64,000 bases of DNA from the NCBI GenBank assembly GCA_019096195.1, contig JAGTXK010000052.1, positions 124,001 through 188,000 on the forward strand, written 5' to 3'. Below are positions 18,525-48,918 of the stretch, piece after piece. Each line of letters opens with the position of its first letter. The first letter of the stretch is position 1. This DNA is from Boletus sp. NGJ. Its lineage: Eukaryota > Basidiomycota > Agaricomycetes > Boletales > Boletaceae. Made by a program: the position numbers and the translations under genes. The notes beneath the pieces are model-generated. The model was not told the DNA's origin and searched no databases. It saw nothing but the letters and a program-made list of their open reading frames with translations.

Positions 18525-19902
18525 TGAAACGTTTACCCATGATACCTACTATTTATCACTACCCTCACTACCCTCTCACACCACCTATAGATGATACATT
18601 CACCTACCATCAACCAAGCTCCATCCTTGCCTTACTTTGCATACACCTAGGGTAGCCACTTATTGTATCCTTTCTCATACGATACATCACACTATCACCC
18701 ACACCCATGTACACTTTCATTAGTAGTACTCTTATCATATCTACTACACCTATGACACCAAGTAGCCTCATGGCTAACCTGGCATTCACCGCCACAAGCA
18801 TAGGTCCATACACCTCTAAACTACAAACACCCTGTGGACATATCTAATGCAGTGCTTGGTATCCACACAAGACCCATAGACCATACCTGATGCAGTGCTC
18901 AGTACCCTACACAAGTACTAATCAAGCAATGCTAGATTAACCCTGTAGATATTGACAAGATCTGATCTATCCCCCAATATGATCTCATCTCAATACCAGA
19001 TCCAACGATCACCCTATGCAACGCCTTAAGTGCTATTCTTTCATTTCTCCTTCATTCCATCTCTCTGTTCCTATCTACTGTATTAGTTCCTTCTGATATA
19101 TTACAATATAGCCATGCCTAGAGCATCATGGACTATATTTCTCTTACATGCATGTATCATATGCATCTCATTCCACCATTTCTTCCTTTTGCTATTGGAT
19201 GCTAACATTCTTCGTTCCTGTGATGTCATACCCAGTATCTATGACATCATAGCATAGCATGGTCTGTGCACCACTATCAGTAGTATATAAAGTAGCCAGT
19301 AGAGTACCATGTTTTGCTTAGCCTTGAAATTGTTATGAATCTTTTGGAACAAACACAAGGCTTGATGCTCGCAGGTTACACTGGCCCTGGCTCAACGAAT
19401 GAGGTGGGGAGTCATGTCTGTACTATGCCAACCCTACAATGACCAGAGTGGTCAAGGCAATGAGTTGTTGGAGCAGAATACAAATGGATTAGACTAGGGA
19501 TTCCAGTTGTCAAAGTGCTACTTTATATACAGTATGTACAGGGATGGTGCACAGACCAAGCTGTGTGTGTGATAAATAACTACATATAGTAAGATGGAGA
19601 TTAAATGGGCTGTGTGAGAAGAGCAGAAATTAAAAGGTTGTGGATCACATGAGGTATGATGTCATCTGACGTCATAGGTTCTAGACCATGTTATGTGATT
19701 GTTTCCATGGTCATGTGCACAGTCATGTGACTTGAGAAGAAAAGAGTTGATGAAATAAAAAGTAAGTATCAAAGTGAAAAGTTTGAAAATGTTCAATATC
19801 ATAACAGAAATTGCCTTTCTCTCTCTCATATATTGCTCTAGTCAGCAATGCTTGAGATATTAGGTCTAGGTTTCATCTTCTGTCTGTTGTTTGTTCCTTT
19901 TA
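18525..19902 (+). repeat. Solo LTR, family 2, holding a second solo LTR
   Basis: Begins TGAAACGTTTAC and ends GTTCCTTTTA, flanked by the 5-bp duplication CTTAT (18520-18524 and 19903-19907). A TATATAAAG box near 19277 resembles that of the Ty3/Gypsy LTR at 29207. A related copy lies at 40971-41992 in the opposite orientation. It is interrupted by the solo LTR at 19331-19806. No internal region remains. Confidence 0.75.
19331..19806 (-). repeat. Solo LTR, family 1 (same family as 42574-48918)
   Basis: Starts TGTTATGAA and ends TCATAACA, with 5-bp duplications GAAAT at 19326-19330 and 19807-19811. It matches the LTRs of the Ty3/Gypsy element at 42574-48918 along its length and has the same orientation on the plus strand. 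It is nested inside the family-2 solo LTR, so it is younger than that one. Confidence 0.88.
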
Positions 19903-20728: not shown

Positions 20729-22100
20729 ATGAAACCCATTTCCATCTCTCAAAGAAATAATATCATCTCTTTCTCCTCTCATGGGCTTTCCTCTAGGAAA
20801 TTTTCTACCCAAACTGGCCTAGGAAAGTTTACAGTATGCCAGGTTCTTCAGGAACTCCAGCCAGAGAAGACTAGGCTTCGTGGTGGTTGTCCTTCCAAGC
20901 TTACCTCTACCAACAAGAAATCATTATTGGCAAGGCCAAGAATGCTGTTCAGGCTGCTCACTATATCAATATCATCATTGATACTCCTGTCTATTCTCAG
21001 ACTGTCAGAAATACTCTTAAGGAAGCCTCTTTAAAGGCTATGGTAAAGAAGAAAAAGCCACTGCTTTCCAGTGGTCACAAGAGAAAGAGATTAGTCATTG
21101 CTCTCAAGTATTAACATTGGATTATGGAGGACTGGAAGAGAGTTATATGGTCAGATGAGACTAAGATCAATAGAGTTGGGTCAGATGGGCAATGTTATGA
21201 ACCTTTTGGAACAAAACCACAAGGCTTGAATGATGCTTGCAGACTACACTAATCCTGGCTCAATGGATGAGGTGGGGAGTTGTAGTCCATACTATGCCAA
21301 CCCTACAATGACCAGAATGGTCAAGGCAATGAGTTGTTGGAGCAGAATACAAATGGATTAAACTGGGGATTCCAGTTGTCAAAGTGCTACTTTATATATG
21401 TACAAGGATGGTGCACAGACCAAGCTGTGCATGTGATAAATTACTACATATAGTAAAACAGAGATTAATGGGGCTATGTGAGAAGAGTGGAAATTAAAAG
21501 ATTGTGGATCACATGAGGTATGATGTCATCTGATGTCATAAGTTCTAGACCGTATCATGTGATTGTTCCCATGGTTATATGACTTGATAAGAAAGAATTG
21601 ATGAAATGAAAAAGTAAGCATTGAGATGAAAAGTTTGAAAATATTCAATATCATAACAGGCAAGAGTATATGTGGAAAAAGAAGGGAGAAGGGCTGATTG
21701 CTAAAGAGGTCCAAGATACAATCAAGTTTGGAGGAGGCTCACTGATGGTATAGGGCTGCATAGGGTGGAATGGAGTGGGAATTTTGAGTGGATGGAGGGG
21801 AGAATGAATGCTAAACAATATGTGGCCATTTTGGAGCAGGGATTGCTTTAGAGCATGAAGGAATTTGGAATTCCTAAAGATGATATTATTTTTCAATAAG
21901 ATAATGACCCCAAGCATACATTTAAAAGAGCTCAAAGATGGTTTGAAGAGCAAGAGATCAAGCTTCTGAACTGGCCTGCATAATCTTCAAACCTCAGTCC
22001 CATTGAACATACTTGGAATCACCTCAAGAGATGCCTCTTAGGTTATAAGAATGCTCCTGCAGAAGTTCATCAATTGTGGGAAATAGTTTATTGTGTTTAG
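20729..22100 (+). pseudogene. Tc1/mariner transposase (DDE), broken
   Basis: N-terminal helix-turn-helix text ISISQRNNIISFSSHGLSSR and GLGKFTVCQVLQELQPEKTR. Catalytic parts are VIWSDETKINRVGSDG (first D), IIFQ-DNDPKHTFKRAQRWF (second D) and NLSPIEHTWNHLKR (E), giving a DD34E-like triad. Stops lie at 21112-21114 (TAA in place of the Gln of KYQHW) and 21751-21753 (TAG in place of the Trp of LMVWGC), and a frame change follows near 21790. A 466-bp LTR splits the frame after SDGQ. Both stops are C-to-T or G-to-A changes. Confidence 0.85.
21193..21658 (-). repeat. Solo LTR, family 1, inserted in the transposase
   Basis: 466 bases, TGTTATGAAC...TCATAACA, with 5-bp duplication GGCAA at 21188-21192 and 21659-21663. 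Same family and plus-strand orientation as the LTRs at 19331, 42574 and 48454. Confidence 0.9.
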
Positions 22101-25283: not shown

Positions 25284-26264
25284 ATGAATGGACACGCCCC
25301 TACACCACCCATGCAACCCAAAAAGCTAAGCATCTGGCAACAAAACATGAACAAGTTCTGGAACGCCCAACAATACATGCTAAGAAACCTCAACCCAGCA
25401 AAATACGACATCGCACTAATACAAGAACTGGTAATCAATATAGTAAACCTTACCACAGCTAACCTAAGATGGAACATAATTTACCCCTCCTCCCACCACC
25501 AGGACCAAGCCATGCGCACAAGATCAGTCATACTCATCAACAAGAACATATCAAAATGCATCATACCCATGGACAACCCCGACATCACTGCTATTGAACT
25601 ACGTGGCCAGTTTGGAAAAATATCCATCTACAATGTGTACAATGACATCAACCACAATGACACCTTAGACGCTTTGGAACACCACTTCGTAACCATGAGC
25701 TCCCACGATGAAGAAAATGTAGATGGTGTTCTTCTTATGGGGGACTTCAACCACCACCACCTCGTGTGGGATGAAGCCAGGAACCAACACCTGTTCACTG
25801 CCGCCAACCTCAAAGCCATGCAACCACTCCTAGAAATCCTAGCCTCCTATGACCTACTCATGGCCCTACCAGAAAACCTACCCACCCTAGAGGCCAACGC
25901 AACTGGAAATCACACCCGACCAGATAACATCTTCTGCACCTCACACCTCCTAGAGTCCATCACCATCTGCAACGTCAAATCAGAACTTCGACCAATGGGA
26001 ACCAACCACTTTCCCATTATCACCGAACTCAACTTATTGCTGGACCACATCAGCCCCCCACCGAAAAGGAACTTCAAATCAACAAATTGGGAAAAGTTCG
26101 AAAAATGCTTATCAGAGAAACTAAATGTGCTTTCCCCCCCTAGAGAAATTGGCTCTGTCCACCACCTCGAAGATCGCCTAGATACACTCATGCAGGCCAT
26201 CCTCGACACCATCAACACATGCGTCCAACTTAGCAAACCATCCCCATACATGAAAGGATGGTAG
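25284..26264 (+). pseudogene. LINE ORF2, APE-type endonuclease
   Basis: Apurinic-endonuclease-like domain that nicks target DNA. Seen: LSIWQQNMNKFWNAQQYMLR, DIALIQE with the metal-binding Glu, ISIYNVYNDINHND, VLLMGDFNHHHLVWD with the GDFN box, and MGTNHFPIITELNL, equivalent to the SDH box but with Asn in place of Asp. It ends at a TAG (26262-26264) where a Trp is expected (KGWW). Confidence 0.8.
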
Positions 26265-26291
26265 ACACTGGAACTTGACCAACAATGCAAA

Positions 26292-27480
26292 ATGGTCCAG
26301 CACCTAGAATGCACTGCATACGCAAAACACCAACAACGCACTCACCCGATCCACGCAGAAGCCAAGGAAGCCTGTAACAAACTGCGCACCAGCATCGGCC
26401 AAGCAAAGGAAGAGCACTGGATTGATTACCTCGAAAATGTCAAGAGTAGCAACATCTGGGACATACACAAGTACCTGACAAATGAACCCACAGATTCTTT
26501 CATCTCCTGCATACCTAACCTCAGAACTAACAACTCCAACCCAGCGCCCACAGAACAGATGAATAAAGAAAAAAGCGAACTCCTCTACAAAACCTTCTTC
26601 AAGGTGGCCACCAACCAAGACTTTGACATGCCCCTAGACGGATACCCAGAACCAGCCAGGCAATTCACAAATGTCACAAATGCACAAATCGAGCGCACCA
26701 TCACCTGGCTTTCCCCGTACAAAGCCCCAGGACCAAATGGGGTCTGCAATGTAGTCTTCACAAAAAATGCTAACCTCCTCGTCCCCCACCTAGGGCCTAT
26801 CTACCAAGCAACATTCACACAGGAGTACTACCCAGAAAAATGGAAAAACTCCTCCACCGTCATACTCCGGAAACCTGGCCAACCAGACTACACAATAACA
26901 AAAACATATTGCCCCATAGTGCTTCTAGACACAATGGCTAAGATTCTTTCATCATGCATAGCTGACGAAATCTCCTATCTGGCAGAATCCCAAGGACTCC
27001 TCCCACCCACACACTTCGGAGGCCGCCCTGGCCAAATGACAGTGGACTCTGTCCACCTCCTATCCAAATTCACATATGACGCTTGGGCACAACCCAAAGA
27101 AAAGTATGTATCTGCTCTTTTCCTCGACATAAAAGCGGCATTCCCAAGCATCATATCCAACAAACTATTTCATAACATGAAAATGAAGGGCCTACCCCAC
27201 GAATACGTCGAGTGGTACAAACAATGCCTGACGGGCTGACATACCACTCTGACCTTTGATGATTTCACTTCAGATCCATTCCTGATCCCTATAGGACTCA
27301 ACCAAGGGTGTCTGCTATCCCCTATTGCATACCTATTCTACAATGCAGACCTGATAAGCCTAGCCGAAAGAAGGAAAGACATGCTAGGCTTGGGCTTCAT
27401 CAACAATACTGCATTCACTGCAAGAGGCAGAAGTTTTGAGGAGGCAAATAAAAAACTAAAAAAGTTAATAGAAGAAGAGA
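26292..27480 (+). pseudogene. LINE ORF2, reverse transcriptase
   Basis: RT blocks in order: WLSPYKAPGPNGVCNVVFTK, KNSSTVILRKPGQPDYT, FGGRPGQMTVDSVHLLSKF, YVSALFLDIKAAFPSI (first catalytic Asp present), and PIGLNQGCLLSPIAYLFYNA. The catalytic box, normally an xxDD, reads FINNTAF at 27396-27416: both Asp codons are Asn (AAC AAT), each explained by one G-to-A change. A TGA at 27237 stands at a Trp position. Confidence 0.82.
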
Positions 27481-28244: not shown

Positions 28245-29206
28245 GAAATCAACGACAACCCACTGGTCGCTGCCCTAGATGATATACACACAGAATTGGA
28301 AGATGATATATGCATCTACTCGAATGGATCAGGAGTCGAGGAAAAGATTGGAGGGGCAGTGGTCCTGATGAGAGGAGGAGTACGAAAGAAAATACTGAAA
28401 TTCCACCTAGGAACAGAAAAAGACCACACAGTTTACGAAGGGGAACTGGTAGGAATGATCTTGGCAGTGGAGTTACTATGCAGGGAATAAAGGGCACGTC
28501 GGGTTTCACTGGAGGTGGACAGCAAGGCGGCGATCTACGCATCACAATCAACAACACCGGGACTGGGCCACCACCTCATGGACCTCTTCCACGAGACACT
28601 TGCATCCACTCTGGAAACGATAGAAGCAGACAAGGTAACCATCAGGTGGACACCAGGCCACACCAGCATCTTGGGAAATGAGGAGGCAGACACAGCCGCA
28701 AAAGCAGCCGCACAAGGAGACATGAGCCCCCCCAACCTACTTCCTCAAGCACTAAAATGAGGGGGAACAGCCACCCAGCTCCCCAAGAGCAAGTCAGCGA
28801 CAGCCAGAGCATTTATGGAGCACTTAAAAATCACACGAAAAAGAATATTTGACTCCTCTTCCCGCGCCCACGCTGCAAAGAAAGTCAACCCGACCCTACC
28901 ATCTAAGCATTTTCTAAAACTAGTCGACAACTTTCCCAGACGCCACGCAGCAATCATCTTCCAGCTACACACTGGACATGCTCCACTCAATAAACACCTA
29001 CACTGCATTGTGAAATCGGAGACACCCAAGTGCCCACACTGCCCACAAAGGGAAGAAACAGTCCTCCATTTTCTCCTCAAATGCCCACACTATGCCGAAG
29101 CTCAATGACAACTCCACTACAAACTACACTGTAAAGCTCATAACATCCCATCACTACTCGCCAACCTCAAATGTATAAAACACACACTCACCTTCATCTA
29201 CTCCAC
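28245..29206 (+). pseudogene. LINE ORF2, RNase H and Cys/His C-terminus
   Basis: RNase H text: ICIYSNGSGVEEKIGGAVVL, VYEGELVGMILAVELL, LEVDSKAAIYASQS and IRWTPGHTSILGNEEADTAA. The first Asp position reads SNGS instead of the usual SDGS. Then comes a C-terminal block with CPHCPQREETVLHFLLKCPH, the conserved Cys/His motif of this LINE group. TGA stops at 28758 and 29106 lie at Trp positions. The frame continues after the nested element at 36464 onward and ends QDKM-stop near 36520. Confidence 0.78.
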
Positions 29207-29570
29207 TGAAACAAACTCGGATATTTTCACATTATTTACGTAGCTAGCTAACACTTAGACGATCCCACGAACGCCTTACGTAGTTACCATTATACCTAGA
29301 CCTTACGTCTAGACCATACGTCACACATTAGTCAGCCTACGTCACAACCCTATACCCATAGAACAGGCTAGACCCCACTACGTCACTGTACGTCATACGA
29401 GAACATTCTAGTAGGTTCCACGACCGGCCCTAAGCTGGTCCGTGCCCCCGAGGTAGGTAGTATATAAAGTAGCGTCACAACGCTTGTAGTAGCTAGTCTT
29501 GGAATTCCTCTTCTCTCGCTCGGATTACGCCCTTCGCGTCCCGTGTGATATTGAGGTCTTTCTCCTTTCA
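29207..29570 (+). repeat. 5' LTR of the GC-rich Ty3/Gypsy element
   Basis: Begins TGAAA and ends TTTCA. TATA box at 29461-29469. The predicted transcript start region 29496-29506 is complementary to the primer-binding site directly after the LTR. Confidence 0.9.
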
Positions 29571-29581
29571 AATTCCAAGAC
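29571..29581 (+). promoter_or_regulatory. Self-priming primer-binding site
   Basis: AATTCCAAGAC, directly after the LTR, is the exact complement of GTCTTGGAATT at 29496-29506, which lies about 30 bases after the TATA box. This is the layout of Tf1/sushi-type self-primed elements and not a tRNA-primed site. Confidence 0.75.
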
Positions 29582-32500
29582 TATTCCTCGTCCCCGGGCT
29601 CTTCGCCTCCGGACACTTTCCTACCCCCCCCACTCCTACTGTTTTTGCCTAGTCGAGCAAACTTATTGCCCCCTAGTACCGCTCCCCTTTTCCGACCTCG
29701 ACGCCCCCCGCATCAGACGCTCCAGAGGAACCGCGGGACCTCGTTAGCGATAACGCGTAATCCCGGACCTATTACGGCGGTTGCAAGCGCGAGGTTTAAG
29801 TCCCCTGCAGCTGCAGGCGAACGAATAAGGGGTTAGAGGTCACGCTTACTCACTCCCTCCATCCACTTCCGAACGTGTGGGCTCGTCGCCGCCGTTCACC
29901 CCTATACCGGACCTCAGGTTTGAGGGACCCGCTCGTACACGTGACGTACGCGAGTAAAGCACTCGGCGAAACGCTTGCACATACGCTCGTCCGGCGTCAC
30001 AAATAAGGATAAAGTTGCTGTCGGGCATAGTGCACTAGCCCCACTTCTCTGGTGGTTGCCGACCAGAGCGTACGCTGGTGCTACGATAGTGGACCCGGGT
30101 TCGCGTGATTACCCGTAACGTCACGTAGGTGCGACAACCCCATTTACCTCGACTTTGGGGCGTGCACCACCTCTCCGTAGTAAGAGAGTTATCCTCCGGC
30201 TCCTATCGCTCGACTCTCCCATTTCCTGACGGTGCGCGGTCTTTCCCGCCGTTATTCTTTGCAGCTCTGCCTTCAGACACCCCCCGCACGTACAACGTAT
30301 TCAGACGCCGCTACGTCTGGGTACACCCCGACTACTCCTTCGTAATCCACACAGTCCTCACCACCTACTCCACGCACGACCACCGCCACCGAACAATCAC
30401 CCGACTTGCCCAGCTCGCCGGACTAAGACGAGATGAGCCACGTACCCCTCCCAACCGCCGTACTCGCGCCCCGCGTCCGTCGCCCCGGCCCCGGGCAGCT
30501 TCAGGGACCTGGCCAACCGGGCGGCAGCCCAGGGCCTGCCTACCCTCCAGTTGGTCCAGCCTACCCCACCAGCAATGCCCGATCCCCCCTGCCGCAGGCC
30601 CCTCCGTCCCCTACCCGCCAAGAGGACACAGCGCAGTACCTCCTGCACCAATCCGTCCTGCGCTACAACCTGTGGCGCCAAGCGTTCGCGGCCGACGCCG
30701 CAGCGGCTGGACCGCCCCCTCCAATCGAGCTGCCGAGAGTGGACCCTCCCGCAGCCGCACACGCAGTCCCCTCCCCGAGCTCACGGTATCCGAGTCCAGC
30801 ATCCCTTCTCCAGGGAGGACTCCCCGACTGGTCCCACCGCAGGGCCCAGCTCCCTCGCGCCCGCTCCCCTCGCCCCCGCAGCCGAGCTCGCCCTCCCACT
30901 CGAGTTCACCTGGGATCCCGCGGCCCGCCGCACGTGGCTTTCCCCCCGACCTCCCCGAGGATAGGGAAGAGCCTGGCCGCTAAACCCGAGCACTACGACG
31001 GGAACAAGGAGAAAGTTCGTGCAATGGTGGAGGACCGTCACCCTCTACCTGAACGGCTTCGAGAGCATGCCGACCGACCGGCAGAAAAATCCTCATCACC
31101 CTGTCGTACATGCGAGGTGACAATGCCGCTGGGCGGTTCTCAGACCTTCTGGTGGAAGGTGACGCATACGCAGCCGTCAACTTCGAGTTTTTCGTGGAAA
31201 AGCTCAAGAAGACGTTCCAACCCGCCGGTCTCGTTCGACTGGCTGAACAGAAAGCTGTTCTCCCTTCGCCAAGGGAAGGACACCGTGGAGGACTACTTCA
31301 CGCGACTTGTATCCAGCTGGCCATCGAGGCCAAGTTCGACGTGAGGATTAACGGGCGGACGATCGTCAACCAGATTCGACACCAAGCCCGGAACGAGCTG
31401 GTTGAGTACGTCGAGAGGTACAAGCCAGACCTCATCGACTCCACCGACGTCCGTGAGTGGGAGACCGCCTCTGGTGCGGGCAGAGGAGGTACTCGGCGCC
31501 ATCGCGGAGCGCAAGAGAACCTCCAACGTCTACGCCACCGGCCCCACCTATAACCCCCGTTTCATCCCGCGTCCCCGCTCCTACGCACCGCCCGCCGCTC
31601 CCCCTGCCTACTCGCCCGCCCCCCTCGGCGCCCGCTACGCGCCCGCACCCTCAGCAAACCGGGACCTTCCCCGGACAAGGCGCTCCTATGGAGCTAGACA
31701 AGGCACGCGCAGCTGGACTGTGCCGAAAATGCAGGAAACCCTGGCCCTGCGCCGACCACCCGCCCCGCCCTCGCCCTCAAGCGAGGAGCATAACGGTAAA
31801 CGGCCAGGAGGTTTCCCCCGAGATGTTTGCGACAATCAGGAGCATGATGGACTCCGCAGAGGCTCCCCAGGAGGAGCAAGTAGTATACGCGCCCGATGTA
31901 CAAAGTGACTCGGGTTTTCAGTCTGTACAGTAGATACCAGTCGACCTGCTGTACCACCACCTAAGTCATTGCGCAATAACATGTTCTCTGTTTTAAGCAT
32001 TGACGAGACTGAAGACGAAAGTAAGGAGCGCGTGAACCTACCGGGCACTCCGCCCGTAAAACAAGTAACCATCATGCCGCGAAAGGTAAAATTCGCGCCG
32101 TCCGTAAAGCGAGACGACGGCCCGAATGATGCGGACACCATCCCTCGCAAACATCCCAAGGAGGCACGAAAGGAAGAGATGTCCTCTCGTTCCTGGCTGA
32201 ACACGTTGGACCCCTGGTCTATACGTTGGATGAAGGCACAAGTGGAGAACACGGATGTTGAGCGTAGCATCCACCACTTGAAGTCCTTCGTCCACGACAG
32301 CAGGACGATCGAAGTATCTCGGGACCTCGTGCAGGATCTCCGAAGACTTTCCGACGAAGATGCGTACTGGGTCCTCCACGACCTACAGCACGCTCCCGAA
32401 ATTCCGGAAAGCATCCCCCCGATCCACGAAGCGAAACTCGCTGGAAATCCCCGTCAAAGTGACCTTCGCGAACCGACAGACCGCCAACGTCAAGGCACTG

Positions 32501-35500
32501 ATCGACTCGGGTTGCACCGGGTCATCCATCCACGAGAACTTCGTAGCCGAAAAGGGGCTAAAAACACACTCCCTCCCCCGTCCCCTCACCGTCTACAACG
32601 CCGACGGCACGCCAAATGCCGGAGGCAAGGTAGAAAAATTCGTGATCCTAGAACTCCAGGTGAACGACCACAAGGAACAATTGGCCCTCGCAGTAACCAA
32701 CCTCGGGCCTAACACCATATTCCTTGGACACGACTGGCTGAAGTCACACAACCCAGCCATCAACTGGAAGACAGGGAGAATCTCCTTCCGATGTAAAGGG
32801 GATCACGTACCGAAGCAACGTAGACGAGGAGGAGGACGAGATGGACGTAGATTACCATGCCTTCCCAAGGCGACCGACTTGTTCAAACTCGATGTCGTAG
32901 ACTACCTGCGCAATCGAAACGTCGCCACCGAGGTGGCTATTAAAGACTACGTCCAGAAAAAGAAAAAGACCTTCGAGGAAGCCGCCCCGAAGTACGTCCA
33001 CGAATATCAAGGACGTCTTCGACAAAGAAAGCTTCGATGCGCTGCCCCCGAGACGCCCTTGGGACCACGCCATCGAGCTCCTCCCGGGAATCCACGAGGT
33101 GGACTGCAAGGTCTACCCCCTCAACCCCGGCGAGCAAAAAGAACTCGACTCCTTCCTCGAGGAGAACCTTAAATCCGGGAGGATACGACCCTCCAAATCA
33201 CCCTTCGCGTCGGCCTTCTTCTTCATCAAGAAGAAAGATGGACGCCTCCGCCCTGTACAAGATTACCACAAGCTAAACGCGGTAACAAAACGAAACGCTA
33301 CCCGCTCCCGCTCATAAGCGAACTGGTCGACAAACTCAAGTCGGCCAAATACTACACAAAGTTCGACGTGAGATGGGGGTACAACAATGTACGAATGGCA
33401 GAAGGAGACGAATGGAAGGCCGCCTTCCGAACAAACCGCGGGCTATTCGAGCCCCTCGTGATGTTCTTCGGACTCACCAACTCCCCAGCGACGTTCCAAA
33501 CGATGATGAACGCGCTGTTTAGACAGCTGGTGGACCGAGGCGTAGTGGTCGTCTACATAGACGATATCATGATATTCACGAGACGCTCGAAGAACACCGC
33601 AAGGTAGTACGAGAAGTGCTACAAATCCTCCGGGACGCCCACCTCTACCTGCGCCACGACAAATGCGACTTCGAAGTCCAAGAAACCGAATTCCTCGGGC
33701 TCATCGTCGCACAAGACAAGGTGAAGATGGACGAGAAGAAAGGTGGAAGCCATCAAGAGCTGGCCACGTCCCCACCTCGAAGAAAACACTCGAGGTTTCC
33801 TCGGATTCCTCAACTTCTACCGACGGTTCGTCAAGAACTTCGCAATGATAGCGCGCCCCCTCAACGCGCTCACGTCGGTAAAGAAAGACTTCGAGTGGAC
33901 GACGGCCTGCCAAGAGGCCTTCCAAACCCTCAAGGACACCATCTCCTCCGCCCCGGCGCTCGCCATGCCCACCGACACCGACCCCTACCGCATCGAAACC
34001 GACGGCTCGGGCATCGGCATCGGCGCCATCCTCTCCCAAAGACACGACGGCATATGGCACCCCGTCGCATTCATCTCCCGTTCCCTCAACGACGCCGAGA
34101 GGAACTACCACGCCGCCGACCTCGAGATGCTAGCCATCATGTTCGCCCTCAACGAAGTGGCGACAATACCTCCTCGAGGCAGCCCACCCAATCGAGATCT
34201 GGACGGATCACAAGAACCTCGAGTTCTTCCGCAAACCCCAGGATCTCACCCGCCGCCAGGCCAGGTGGCAACAAGTCCTACAAGAATACCATGTAGTAAT
34301 CAGCCACCGACCTGGCAAAACCAACCCCGCGGATCCTCTGTCCCGGAGGCCAGACTTTGAAAAGGGGGTGACATCCGACAACACCGCACAAACCTTACTC
34401 CCCGACGCCCTTTTTTCGCCCCCACCATCACCCACCTCCACGACAGTCTCACTCAAAGCCGTCGCACCAGCGAGCACGCTCTCAAGAATCACGAAACTGC
34501 AATACAAACTTGAGCAGTTCGCCAAAGAAGGCCTAGAGAAAGAAAGACTCCCCCTGGACCCGCAAGGACGGACTCGTCCACTGGAAATCGCTCGTTTACG
34601 TGCCAAACGACGCGAAACTCCGAGAGGACATCCTCATCGCCAACCATGATCATCCGATCGCCGGCCACCCCGGCATCCGGCGCACTCGCGATCTGATCAT
34701 GAGCGAATACTACTGGCCCTCGCTTCGACGCGACGTGGAGTCATACGTCAAAGGGTGTGACACATGCCAAAAGGTTAAAGCCAAAACCTCGGCAATCAAC
34801 ACACCACTCCACCCGAATGAGATCCCATCATCCCCCTGGGAAATCATCTCCGTCGACCTGATCGGCCCCCTCCCCAATCAGATGGCAAGAACGCCATTCT
34901 GGTTATCGTCGACTCGTTTCTCGAAAATGATCCACCTAGCCCCGGTGATGGACACCATCACGTCACAAGGAGTCGCGACAATCTTCCGCGACCAAGTCTT
35001 CAAACTCCACGGTGTCCCCCGCAAAGGTGATCTCCGATCGAGGAACCCAATTCGTGTCGTCGTTCATGCGCGACCTCTACTCGCTTCTCAACATCGAAGC
35101 AACCCGTCTACCGCTTACCACCCCCAGACCGACGGCCAGACGGAACGCGTCAACCGAGAAGTCGAGAAGTACCTGCGCATCTACGTAAACCATCGCCAAA
35201 CCGACTGGGCCGAATGGCTACCCCTAGCCGAGTTCGCCCACAACTCGCAAACCACCAGCGCAACCGGCGTCTCACCCTTCCTGCTCAACTACGGGCAACA
35301 ACCACTCATACCCAACAAACGAGTGGAAGTAAGGAACGAGTCCGCCGCCGCCTTCGCCGAAACAATGAAAACCCACCACAACTCGGCCAAGGACGCGCTA
35401 GAGAAAGCGGCAGAGGCGATGAAGAAGGCGCACGACAAGCGCGCATCCCCCGCCGTCGAATACACCGTCGGACAACAGGTTCTACTCGAAGGAACTCACA

Positions 35501-36100
35501 TCCGAACCGACCGACCCGACCAAGAAATTCGACGACAAACGACACGGCCCGTTCAAGGTGAAGCGTAAGGTAGGCGAGGCCTCCTACGAAGCTAGACCTC
35601 CCGCGAACGTGGAAAGGGATCCACCCCGTCTTCCACGAAGTCGCTCCTTACGCCCTACCACCCGGGCACCTCCCCCTCCCAGACGAAACCGAAACCACCC
35701 CCCCCGGTTATCGTCCAACAACAAGAAGAGTACGAAGTGGAGCACGTCGCCGACTCACGTAAGCGACGCGGCAAAACCGAGTACCTCGTACAGTGGAAAG
35801 GGTACCCCCGCGAAGAACGCACTTGGGAACCAAAACGGAACGTCTCAAACGCCCCACAGGCGATCGAGAAGTTCCACCGCAGAAAACCCCACCGCCATCC
35901 GCACGCTCGCCGACAACGAGTGCGACTGCCCAACGTGCGCCTTCCCCGGAACCCCCCTATTCGACGACCCATCCTTCCGCTCGTACGCGGCCTCCTCAAC
36001 CGCCTCCCCGACCACCTCTTCGAGATCCCCGACCCCACAGCGACGTCAAGCTCACCGGTATCATCATCGACCGGGAGTTCGATGGCTAAAAAGGGGGTAA

Positions 36101-36463
36101 TGAAACGAACTCGGACGTTTTTCTCCTTTATTTACGTAGTTAGCTAACACTTAGACGATCCCACGAACGCCTTACGTAGTTACCATTATACCTAGACCTT
36201 ACGTCTAGACCTACGTCACTACATTAGTCAGCCTACGTCACAACCCTATACCCATAGAACAGGCTAGACCCCACTACGTCACTCTACGTCATAGAGAACA
36301 TTCTAGTAGGTTCCACGACCGGCCCTAAGCTGGTCCATGCTCGCAGTAGTTAGTATATAAGGTAGCGCTACAACGCCTGTATTCGCTAATCTTGGAATTC
36401 CTCTTCTCTCTCTCGGACTACGCTCTTCGCGTCCCTTGAGATATTGAGGTTTGTTTCCTTTCA
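36101..36463 (+). repeat. 3' LTR of the GC-rich Ty3/Gypsy element
   Basis: Pairs with 29207-29570. Preceded by the polypurine tract 36088-36100 and followed by the TCCAC duplication and the remaining 3' end of the LINE. Confidence 0.9.
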
Positions 36464-36880
36464 TCCACCCAACACTTCCAAGCCACCCACGGGAACCTGA
36501 CCCCCCCACAAGACAAAATGTGAATACCCATGAAAGCCCAGAAAACCGCCTGCCCCACGACGAAGCACCAAACTCTTTCCCCCCCACAGCAGCCACAGCA
36601 TGCCAAGAACTCCCAAACCAGTACCCCAACACAATAGATCCAACACCTACATAGCTTACTATTTACTTTTTGCACACAAGGTCGCTCTCACAATCTCTTT
36701 AGGAACCACACAATCCACCCGCTCCCCCCTCCACAGTCCAGGAGCAAATACCATAGATATCACACAATAGATACACTACTACACAAGCACAGCACATATA
36801 TGGTCCACCATGGGGCAACACCCCAAAGGACTATAAACGAGGATTAAAAATAAATAAAAAATAAAAAAAGAGGTCATGGT

Positions 36881-42573: not shown

Positions 42574-43030
42574 TGTTATGAACTGTAAGGTGCACACCAC
42601 AAGGCTCGACTACTCATAGGCTACACAAGTCCTGACTCAATGGATGAGGTGGGGAGTTGTTGTCTGTACTATTCCCAACCCTACAATAACCAGAGTGATC
42701 AAGGCAATGGGTTGTTGAAGGAAGAATACAAATGGATTAGACTAGGGATTCCAGTTGTCAAAGTGCTACTTTATATATGTACAAGAATGGTGCACAGACC
42801 AAGCTGTGCATGTGATAAATTACTATATATAGTAAGATGGAAATTAATAGGGCTGTGTGGGAAAGATGGAGATTAAAGAGTCATGGATCATATAAGATAT
42901 GATGTTATATGATGTCATAGGTTCTAGACTATATCATGTGATTGTTTCCATAGTCATGTGACTTGATGAGAAAAGAGTTCAAAAAAATGAAAAGTAAGTG
43001 TCATTGTGGAAAATATTTAATATCATAACA
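42574..43030 (-). repeat. 3' LTR of the family-1 element
   Basis: 457 bases bounded by TGTTATGA and TCATAACA. Adjacent polypurine tract at 43031-43044 (minus strand). Confidence 0.9.
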
Positions 43031-48453: not shown

Positions 48454-48918
48454 TGTTATGAACCATAAGGCACATACCACAAGGCTCAACTACTCACAGG
48501 CTATACAAGTCCTGGCTCAATGGATGAGGTGGGAAGTCATTGTCCATACTATTCCCAACCCTATAATGACCAGAGTGATCAAGGCAATAGGTTGTTGAAG
48601 CAAGAATACAAATGGATTAGACTAGGGATTCCAGTTGTCAAAGTGCTACTTTATATATGTACAAGGATGGTGCATAGACCAAGCTGTGCATGTGATAAAT
48701 TACTATGTATAGTAAGACAGAAATTAATAGGGCTGTGTGAGAAAGATGGAGATTAAAGAGTCGTGGATCACATGAGGTATGATGTCATATGACATCATAG
48801 GTTCTAGACCATATCATGTGATTGTTTCCACAGTCACATGACTTGATGAGAAAAGAGTTCAAAGAAATAAAAAGTAAGTGTCATTGTAAAAAGTTTGAAA
48901 ATATTTAATATCATAACA
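48454..48918 (-). repeat. 5' LTR of the family-1 element
   Basis: 465 bases. TATA-type box near 48650-48660 on the minus strand. The segment 48614-48623 is complementary to the primer-binding site just inside the LTR. Confidence 0.9.

Follow-up and report, generated by a model that had tools for sequence, protein, structure and literature searches.

Architecture of the element

The window analysed here, a 64,000-nucleotide stretch of the Boletus sp. NGJ genome, carries an LTR retrotransposon at positions 29207–36463, the features of which all lie on the forward strand. The element is flanked by a target-site duplication, TCCAC, at 29202–29206 on the left and 36464–36468 on the right. Alignment of the two LTRs places the 5′ LTR, which opens with TG and closes with CA, at 29207–29570 and the 3′ LTR at 36101–36463, and these boundaries recur in sibling copies. 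The R start of the 3′ LTR, AATCTTGGAATT, differs from that of the 5′ LTR. The sequence further reveals a TATA box (TATATAA) at 29461–29467 and a polypurine tract, AAAAAGGGGG, at 36088–36097, three bases 5′ of the 3′ LTR; in the sibling copies inspected, a G-rich tract and then TAA directly precede the 3′ LTR.

The coding frames of the window copy are in pieces, so that this copy itself need not be active. Pfam scans of these pieces identify, in order, an aspartyl protease (32360–33172, gag-asp_proteas, E 1.8e-07), an RNase H (33743–34360, RT_RNaseH_2, E 1.1e-29), an integrase zinc-binding domain (34600–35568, Integrase_H2C2, E 3.8e-22) and a chromodomain (35713–35904, Chromo PF00385, E 2.4e-18), the last of these lying at the integrase end, where the initial annotation had placed it. 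Four of the seven window pieces in the first scan gave no match, and gag and reverse transcriptase were unmatched in the window pieces scanned. In the five pieces of a sibling copy, L061, matches were obtained to gag, reverse transcriptase, RNase H, the integrase zinc-binding domain, SH3_Tf2-1 and chromo, with one piece unmatched. The domain order in this sibling is gag, reverse transcriptase, RNase H, integrase zinc-binding domain and chromodomain, and the window pieces and L061 together display the gene order of Ty3/Gypsy elements (Metaviridae) between the LTRs. The closest match to the L061 reverse transcriptase among solved structures is that of Ty3 (4ol8, E 2.3e-51).

The element appears to lie in or beside a non-LTR retrotransposon, of which endonuclease and reverse-transcriptase pieces are found at 25284–27239. 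Elsewhere in the window there is a second LTR-like pair (42574–42873 and 48454–48753), 5,880 bases apart, 92% alike and situated in an AT-rich stretch, as well as two related repeat copies at 19480–19730 and 21344–21594. The genome also holds 21 hydrophobin-family matches, nine of which are clustered at G000:C119:100155-119014. No such match occurs in any of 14 prokaryotes taken as controls, a contrast pointing to a fungal host, probably a mushroom-type one.

The 12-base complement and its variation among copies

The segment AGTCTTGGAATT at 29495–29506 is a perfect complement, over 12 base pairs, of AATTCCAAGACT at 29571–29582, or over 13 if T29494:A29583 is counted. The latter segment, the putative primer-binding site, begins at the first base past the 5′ LTR, which ends with CA at 29570. 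The former, the putative self-primer, opens with an A in an initiator-like setting, 34 nucleotides past the first T of TATATAA, and would represent the first 12 nucleotides of the transcript. The initial annotation had described a complement of 11 bases between the sequence right after the 5′ LTR and a segment about 30 bases after the TATA box; both the complement and its placement are real, although one base had been missed, so that the match spans 12 bases and its first base is 29495 rather than 29496. A chance match is rejected. Of 20,000 12-mers drawn with replacement from 29600–36000, none had a perfect antisense match in the 5′ LTR and six had a match with one mismatch. Beyond this figure, the observed match abuts the LTR edge exactly and lies close to where the transcript is predicted to begin. 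The shuffling of related copies described below, in which none of 500 shuffles reached the observed covariation score, likewise argues against chance.

A DNA search of the same genome gave 190 first-look candidates, of which 40 copies, all running past the site into the leader, were scored. Both 12-mers are present in all 40 of these 5′ ends and are perfect complements in 38, the exceptions being L016, with one G·U pair, and L046, with one A·A mismatch at the inner end. Besides these two imperfect copies, there are four fully complementary versions, carried by 18, 16, 3 and 1 copies. The 12-mers were located by a pattern that leaves the variable positions partly open, and an alignment made without the pattern gives the same picture. 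Across the 40 copies, the distance from the first T of the TATA box (TATATA, with at most one mismatch allowed) to the primer start is 32–35 nucleotides, primer and site start 75–77 nucleotides apart, and the first base of the primer is invariably A, preceded by T in 38 copies and by C in two. Two 5′ ends of another subfamily, L126 and L127, have the same primer and site. Genome-wide, a pattern of TATATA, spacer and R start yields 101 matches, 5′ and 3′ LTRs taken together, versus none for the reversed pattern.

For the covariation test, the 40 copies were collapsed to 32 distinct rows and compared with 500 shuffles. Within the primer:site helix, 99.7% of cells pair, compared with 96.5% in the shuffles, and two-sided changes occur at helix pairs 2, 3, 4 and 8. 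No shuffle reached the observed number of pairs with two-sided change, the number of such cells or the covariation score, while the count of further pair types in the helix does not rise above the shuffles (equalled or exceeded in 498 of 500). When the partner segment was slid by one to three columns as a control, no two-sided change was left. Co-variation of both segments in other genome copies, for which the initial annotation had proposed to look, is thereby observed.

The matched changes could in principle mirror no more than common ancestry and sequence exchange among the copies, with the pairing itself unconstrained. The copies do exchange sequence and the segments start just 75–77 nucleotides apart; being related and exchanging copies, they also represent fewer matched changes than their number suggests. 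On a tree from which the helix columns had been left out, we count at least five changes on each side of pair 2, at least three on each side of pair 4, and one on each side of pairs 3 and 8. Independent contrasts on well-supported branches are too few for significance: all three agree for pair 2 (sign test, median p 0.25), and on average 1.7 of two agree for pair 4 (median p 0.5). Against this explanation, the changes arise several times on the tree, many of the intervening U5 columns vary while the pairs remain matched, and the slid controls retain no two-sided change. Moreover, an exchange ending between the two segments would break pairs, yet the 40 copies contain a single one-sided change and a single end mismatch. 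We therefore consider it very improbable that ancestry and exchange account for the pattern, and constrained pairing remains the preferred reading.

Priming by a tRNA is common among LTR elements, indeed their usual mode, and ordinary priming by a full or half tRNA at the post-LTR site, with a merely coincidental match to R, must be weighed accordingly. The window contains no tRNA gene. A family search of the genome gave at least 61 tRNA matches, 56 of which were compared with the window's site; five were omitted, each having the same score as one that was taken, and their letters were left uncompared. Among the 56 loci, the best-fitting tRNA 3′ end, with CCA added, mismatches the site at 6 of 12 positions, the lowest count being 4 when offsets of 0–30 are allowed; the best internal tRNA stretch differs from the 12-mer primer at 3 positions. 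A match at 9 of 12 bases within the tRNA of locus L098 speaks for a tRNA, as does the coverage of 56 of at least 61 loci. Conversely, the site begins with AAT rather than TGG, and within the first 40 nucleotides past the LTR a TGG is found in just 6 of the 40 copies, at offset 24–25 at the earliest. The site also changes in step with the R start, which speaks against coincidence. A better match of the site to a tRNA 3′ end, named in the initial annotation as grounds for abandoning self-priming, is thus absent among the 56 of at least 61 loci, and we regard tRNA priming of this element as highly unlikely.

The conserved structure is predicted to extend beyond the primer into U5. Directly adjoining the primer, CCUC (29507–29510) pairs with GAGG (29553–29556), and these arms enclose an inner hairpin at 29516–29548, in which 29516–29523 pairs with 29541–29548. 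The stem beside the primer reads CCUC:GAGG in 30 of the 40 copies and CCUU:AAGG in the other 10, and L126 and L127 have CCTT opposite AAGG and, as judged by eye, TCCT opposite AGGA further in. In the inner hairpin, 99.0% of cells are paired and two of six pairs show two-sided changes. The covariation score of the U5 structure was matched by none of 500 shuffles, although the test leans towards this structure, which was derived as the consensus of the very alignment examined, and the count of its pairs with two-sided change is unexceptional (95 of 500 shuffles as high). In minimum-energy folds, the primer:site helix, with at least 11 of its 12 pairs, forms in 42 of 42 copies and the stem adjoining the primer is fully formed in 33 of 42; the fold of the window RNA has a z score of −4.93, with none of 200 shuffles as good. 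Duplex prediction in the 42 copies allows U5 to pair with sequence 3′ of the site, but the best pairings, as seen among the eight commonest, vary from copy to copy. Pairing of the U5 GAGG with a CCTC after the site, instead of with the CCTC beside the primer, is disfavoured because the 10 copies with AAGG have CCTT beside the primer yet CCTC after the site. Of a pretzel of three duplexes around primer and site, as described for Tf1, the central duplex is supported, along with a U5 stem; a third duplex is at most a candidate.

Leader structures can serve packaging, and the extension of the structure past the primer into U5 might be taken to indicate that this RNA helix has been conserved for some other job, be it packaging, translation control or dimerisation, while something else primes reverse transcription. 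The helix, however, ends exactly at the CA edge of the LTR and at the expected transcript start, an arrangement predicted by priming and not by these other jobs, and no tRNA-type site was found in the first 40 nucleotides of the leader. We judge this explanation improbable, if somewhat less so than priming by a tRNA, and continue with the helix as a primer bound to its site.

A model of self-priming and the history of the LTRs

The element is very probably a chromodomain-bearing Ty3/Gypsy LTR retrotransposon in which reverse transcription starts from the element's own RNA 5′ end. We propose the following sequence of events. Transcription would begin at or beside A29495, as the TATA spacing and the initiator-like context suggest, and the predicted start in the family copies is the A of AGTCTTGG or AATCTTGG. 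The first 12 nucleotides of the RNA would then fold back onto the site just past the 5′ LTR, a step supported by the matched changes, and the U5 stem, which is likewise supported, would continue the primer:site helix. By analogy with Tf1, the RNase H of the element would cut after nucleotide 12, and the freed 12-mer would prime minus-strand DNA at the LTR edge.

In tRNA-primed elements, plus-strand synthesis copies the primer. An analogous step here would rewrite the site from the RNA 5′ end in every cycle. The lasting match between primer and site may thus be due in part to this copying by the plus strand, and we propose that half-changed copies are almost absent because plus-strand synthesis rewrites the site. 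Primer and site could then constitute a single templated unit, in which the site takes up a change at the transcript start in the course of one cycle, and the primer drifts yet remains matched; we offer this idea tentatively, as somewhat less probable than not. Only one of the 40 copies, L016, which is the same element as L055, has changed on the primer side alone and kept the pair, as G·U. It has the new base in both LTRs and keeps the old base in the site, a pattern such as a lag of one cycle would leave, although one case proves nothing alone. In 16 of 17 elements the 5′ R start is exactly complementary to the site, whereas this holds for the 3′ R start in 11. This difference is expected if the RNA 5′ end matters, but the 5′ R start also lies close to the site, and this proximity would favour the same pattern.

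The LTRs themselves have a complex history. Their comparison covered 21 copies (20 and the window), of which 16 have two full LTRs; L057, L058, L059, L063 and L064 were dropped. Nine of these 16 copies carry LTRs that both resemble an LTR of another element more closely than they resemble each other, the other seven falling outside this pattern. The nearest foreign LTR lies on the same side for 25 of 32 LTRs (permutation mean 15.9, p about 0.006). Eight of the nine copies have perfect 5-bp target duplications, and the two copies of the L060 duplication differ at two bases; the duplication of L050 is off by one base, and none is visible for L064, the 3′ LTR end of which is damaged. The window element, L048 and L049 have bodies that are 0.2–0.4% apart and identical 3′ LTRs, but differ by 10–12% between their own 5′ and 3′ LTRs and have three different duplications. 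More generally, the own LTRs of L048, L049, L060, L062, L065, L066 and the window element differ by 5–12%, compared with 0.2–0.9% for sibling bodies. Two further copies, L124 (C133) and L125 (C107), combine the 3′ LTR type of the window, over its R-U5 part, with two further 5′ LTR types and, by eye, have matching duplications (GGAGG and TAGGG).

Age or an effect of reverse transcription is rejected as the main cause of these differences, since siblings only 0.2–0.9% apart in the body show 5–12% LTR differences and different duplications, and since stretches of LTR sequence that vary in their outer copy are conserved in their inner copy. Within the group of L060, L062, L065 and L066, divergence is 15.0% over the 30 bp that open the 5′ LTR and 14.2% over the 50 bp that close the 3′ LTR, with 0.6% in the body. 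The corresponding values for the window group are 27.8%, 0.0% (0/150) and 0.3%, so that edge divergence is confined to the left edge in that group, and the unchanged last 50 bp of its 3′ LTR speak against an edge effect that acts uniformly. An assembly or polishing artefact may lie behind the mixed LTR pairs, although the stretches of edge divergence, 30 bp at the start and 50 bp at the end, seem in our judgement rather short for one. The data suggest instead that sequence spreads between old insertions by recombination, which fails near unmatched flanks. The recombined LTR pairs also mean that LTR–LTR divergence does not date these insertions. There is precedent for such exchange, as Tf2 is described as entering existing copies by recombination (PMC4981269), and 7 of 150 full copies of crapaud in Podospora are reported to have LTRs of different subfamilies (PMC10787394). 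The mixed crapaud LTRs, to which the mixed pairs found here are comparable, have been read as gene conversion or ectopic recombination (PMC10787394). In contrast to the account of crapaud, mixed pairs make up 9 of 16 copies here, by a different measure, and the divergence is concentrated at the outer ends.

Relation to known self-priming elements

The element displays the features of the Tf1/sushi type, namely a predicted RNA 5′ end complementary to the site, no fitting tRNA among those compared and a chromodomain at the integrase C-terminus. The conclusion that it would work like a self-priming Tf1/sushi element, by these mechanism features rather than by its position in a tree, is well supported, and the covariation, the poor tRNA fits and the chromodomain uphold the initial proposal of this type of self-priming. 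Self-priming has mostly been inferred from the sequences of single elements, Tf1 being the worked-out case. In the present family, the natural variation of 40 copies from a single genome puts the pairing of the putative self-primer to the test base by base, suggests where the primer ends (at 12 nucleotides) and extends the conserved fold by a U5 stem.

A close parallel is with Tf1 and Tf2 of Schizosaccharomyces pombe, in which the start of the RNA is the complement of the site beside the 5′ LTR, with further duplexes around it (PMC7175516, PMC10085805). These elements belong to the chromovirus lineage and their RNase H is described as freeing the primer (PMC7175516, PMC10085805); the present element has both a chromodomain and an RNase H domain, and a corresponding cleavage would be expected. 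The Tf1 mechanism uses 11 bases (PMC7175516), unlike the present primer, which appears to comprise 12 nucleotides. A pretzel fold and a self-priming group have been described (PMC10085805), and in comparison with the Tf1 pretzel, which includes a duplex with sequence after the site, the flanking stem supported here lies within U5.

Among basidiomycetes, self-priming of the Tf1/sushi type has been proposed for Tcn1 of the yeast Cryptococcus neoformans (PMC7175516). The element described here resembles it in being a likely self-priming element of a basidiomycete, a likeness drawn from the description of Tcn1 and not from its sequence. For the plant Tcn1 clade, self-priming is predicted for most elements (PMC6317226), while no evidence of a primer was found for SM-Tcn1, a relative from a non-seed plant (PMC2864245); the same source lists basidiomycete clades. 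A survey of fungal LTR elements (PMC3248453) makes no mention of self-priming, primer binding, PBS or tRNA, and among the titles and abstract openings listed, mostly outside subscription journals, we noticed no report of self-priming in a mushroom-type fungus. The self-priming mode is already known from Tf1/sushi elements, of which the present element is very probably a further case. In other fission yeasts, self-priming has been proposed from sequence for Tj1, Tosmo1-3 and Tcry1 (PMC4600332, PMC10085805), for which a possible pretzel fold has also been argued (PMC10085805), and Tj1 is reported to transpose (PMC4600332, PMC10085805). Unlike these accounts, the present one draws on 40 copies of one family, in which the pairing is tested by matched changes.
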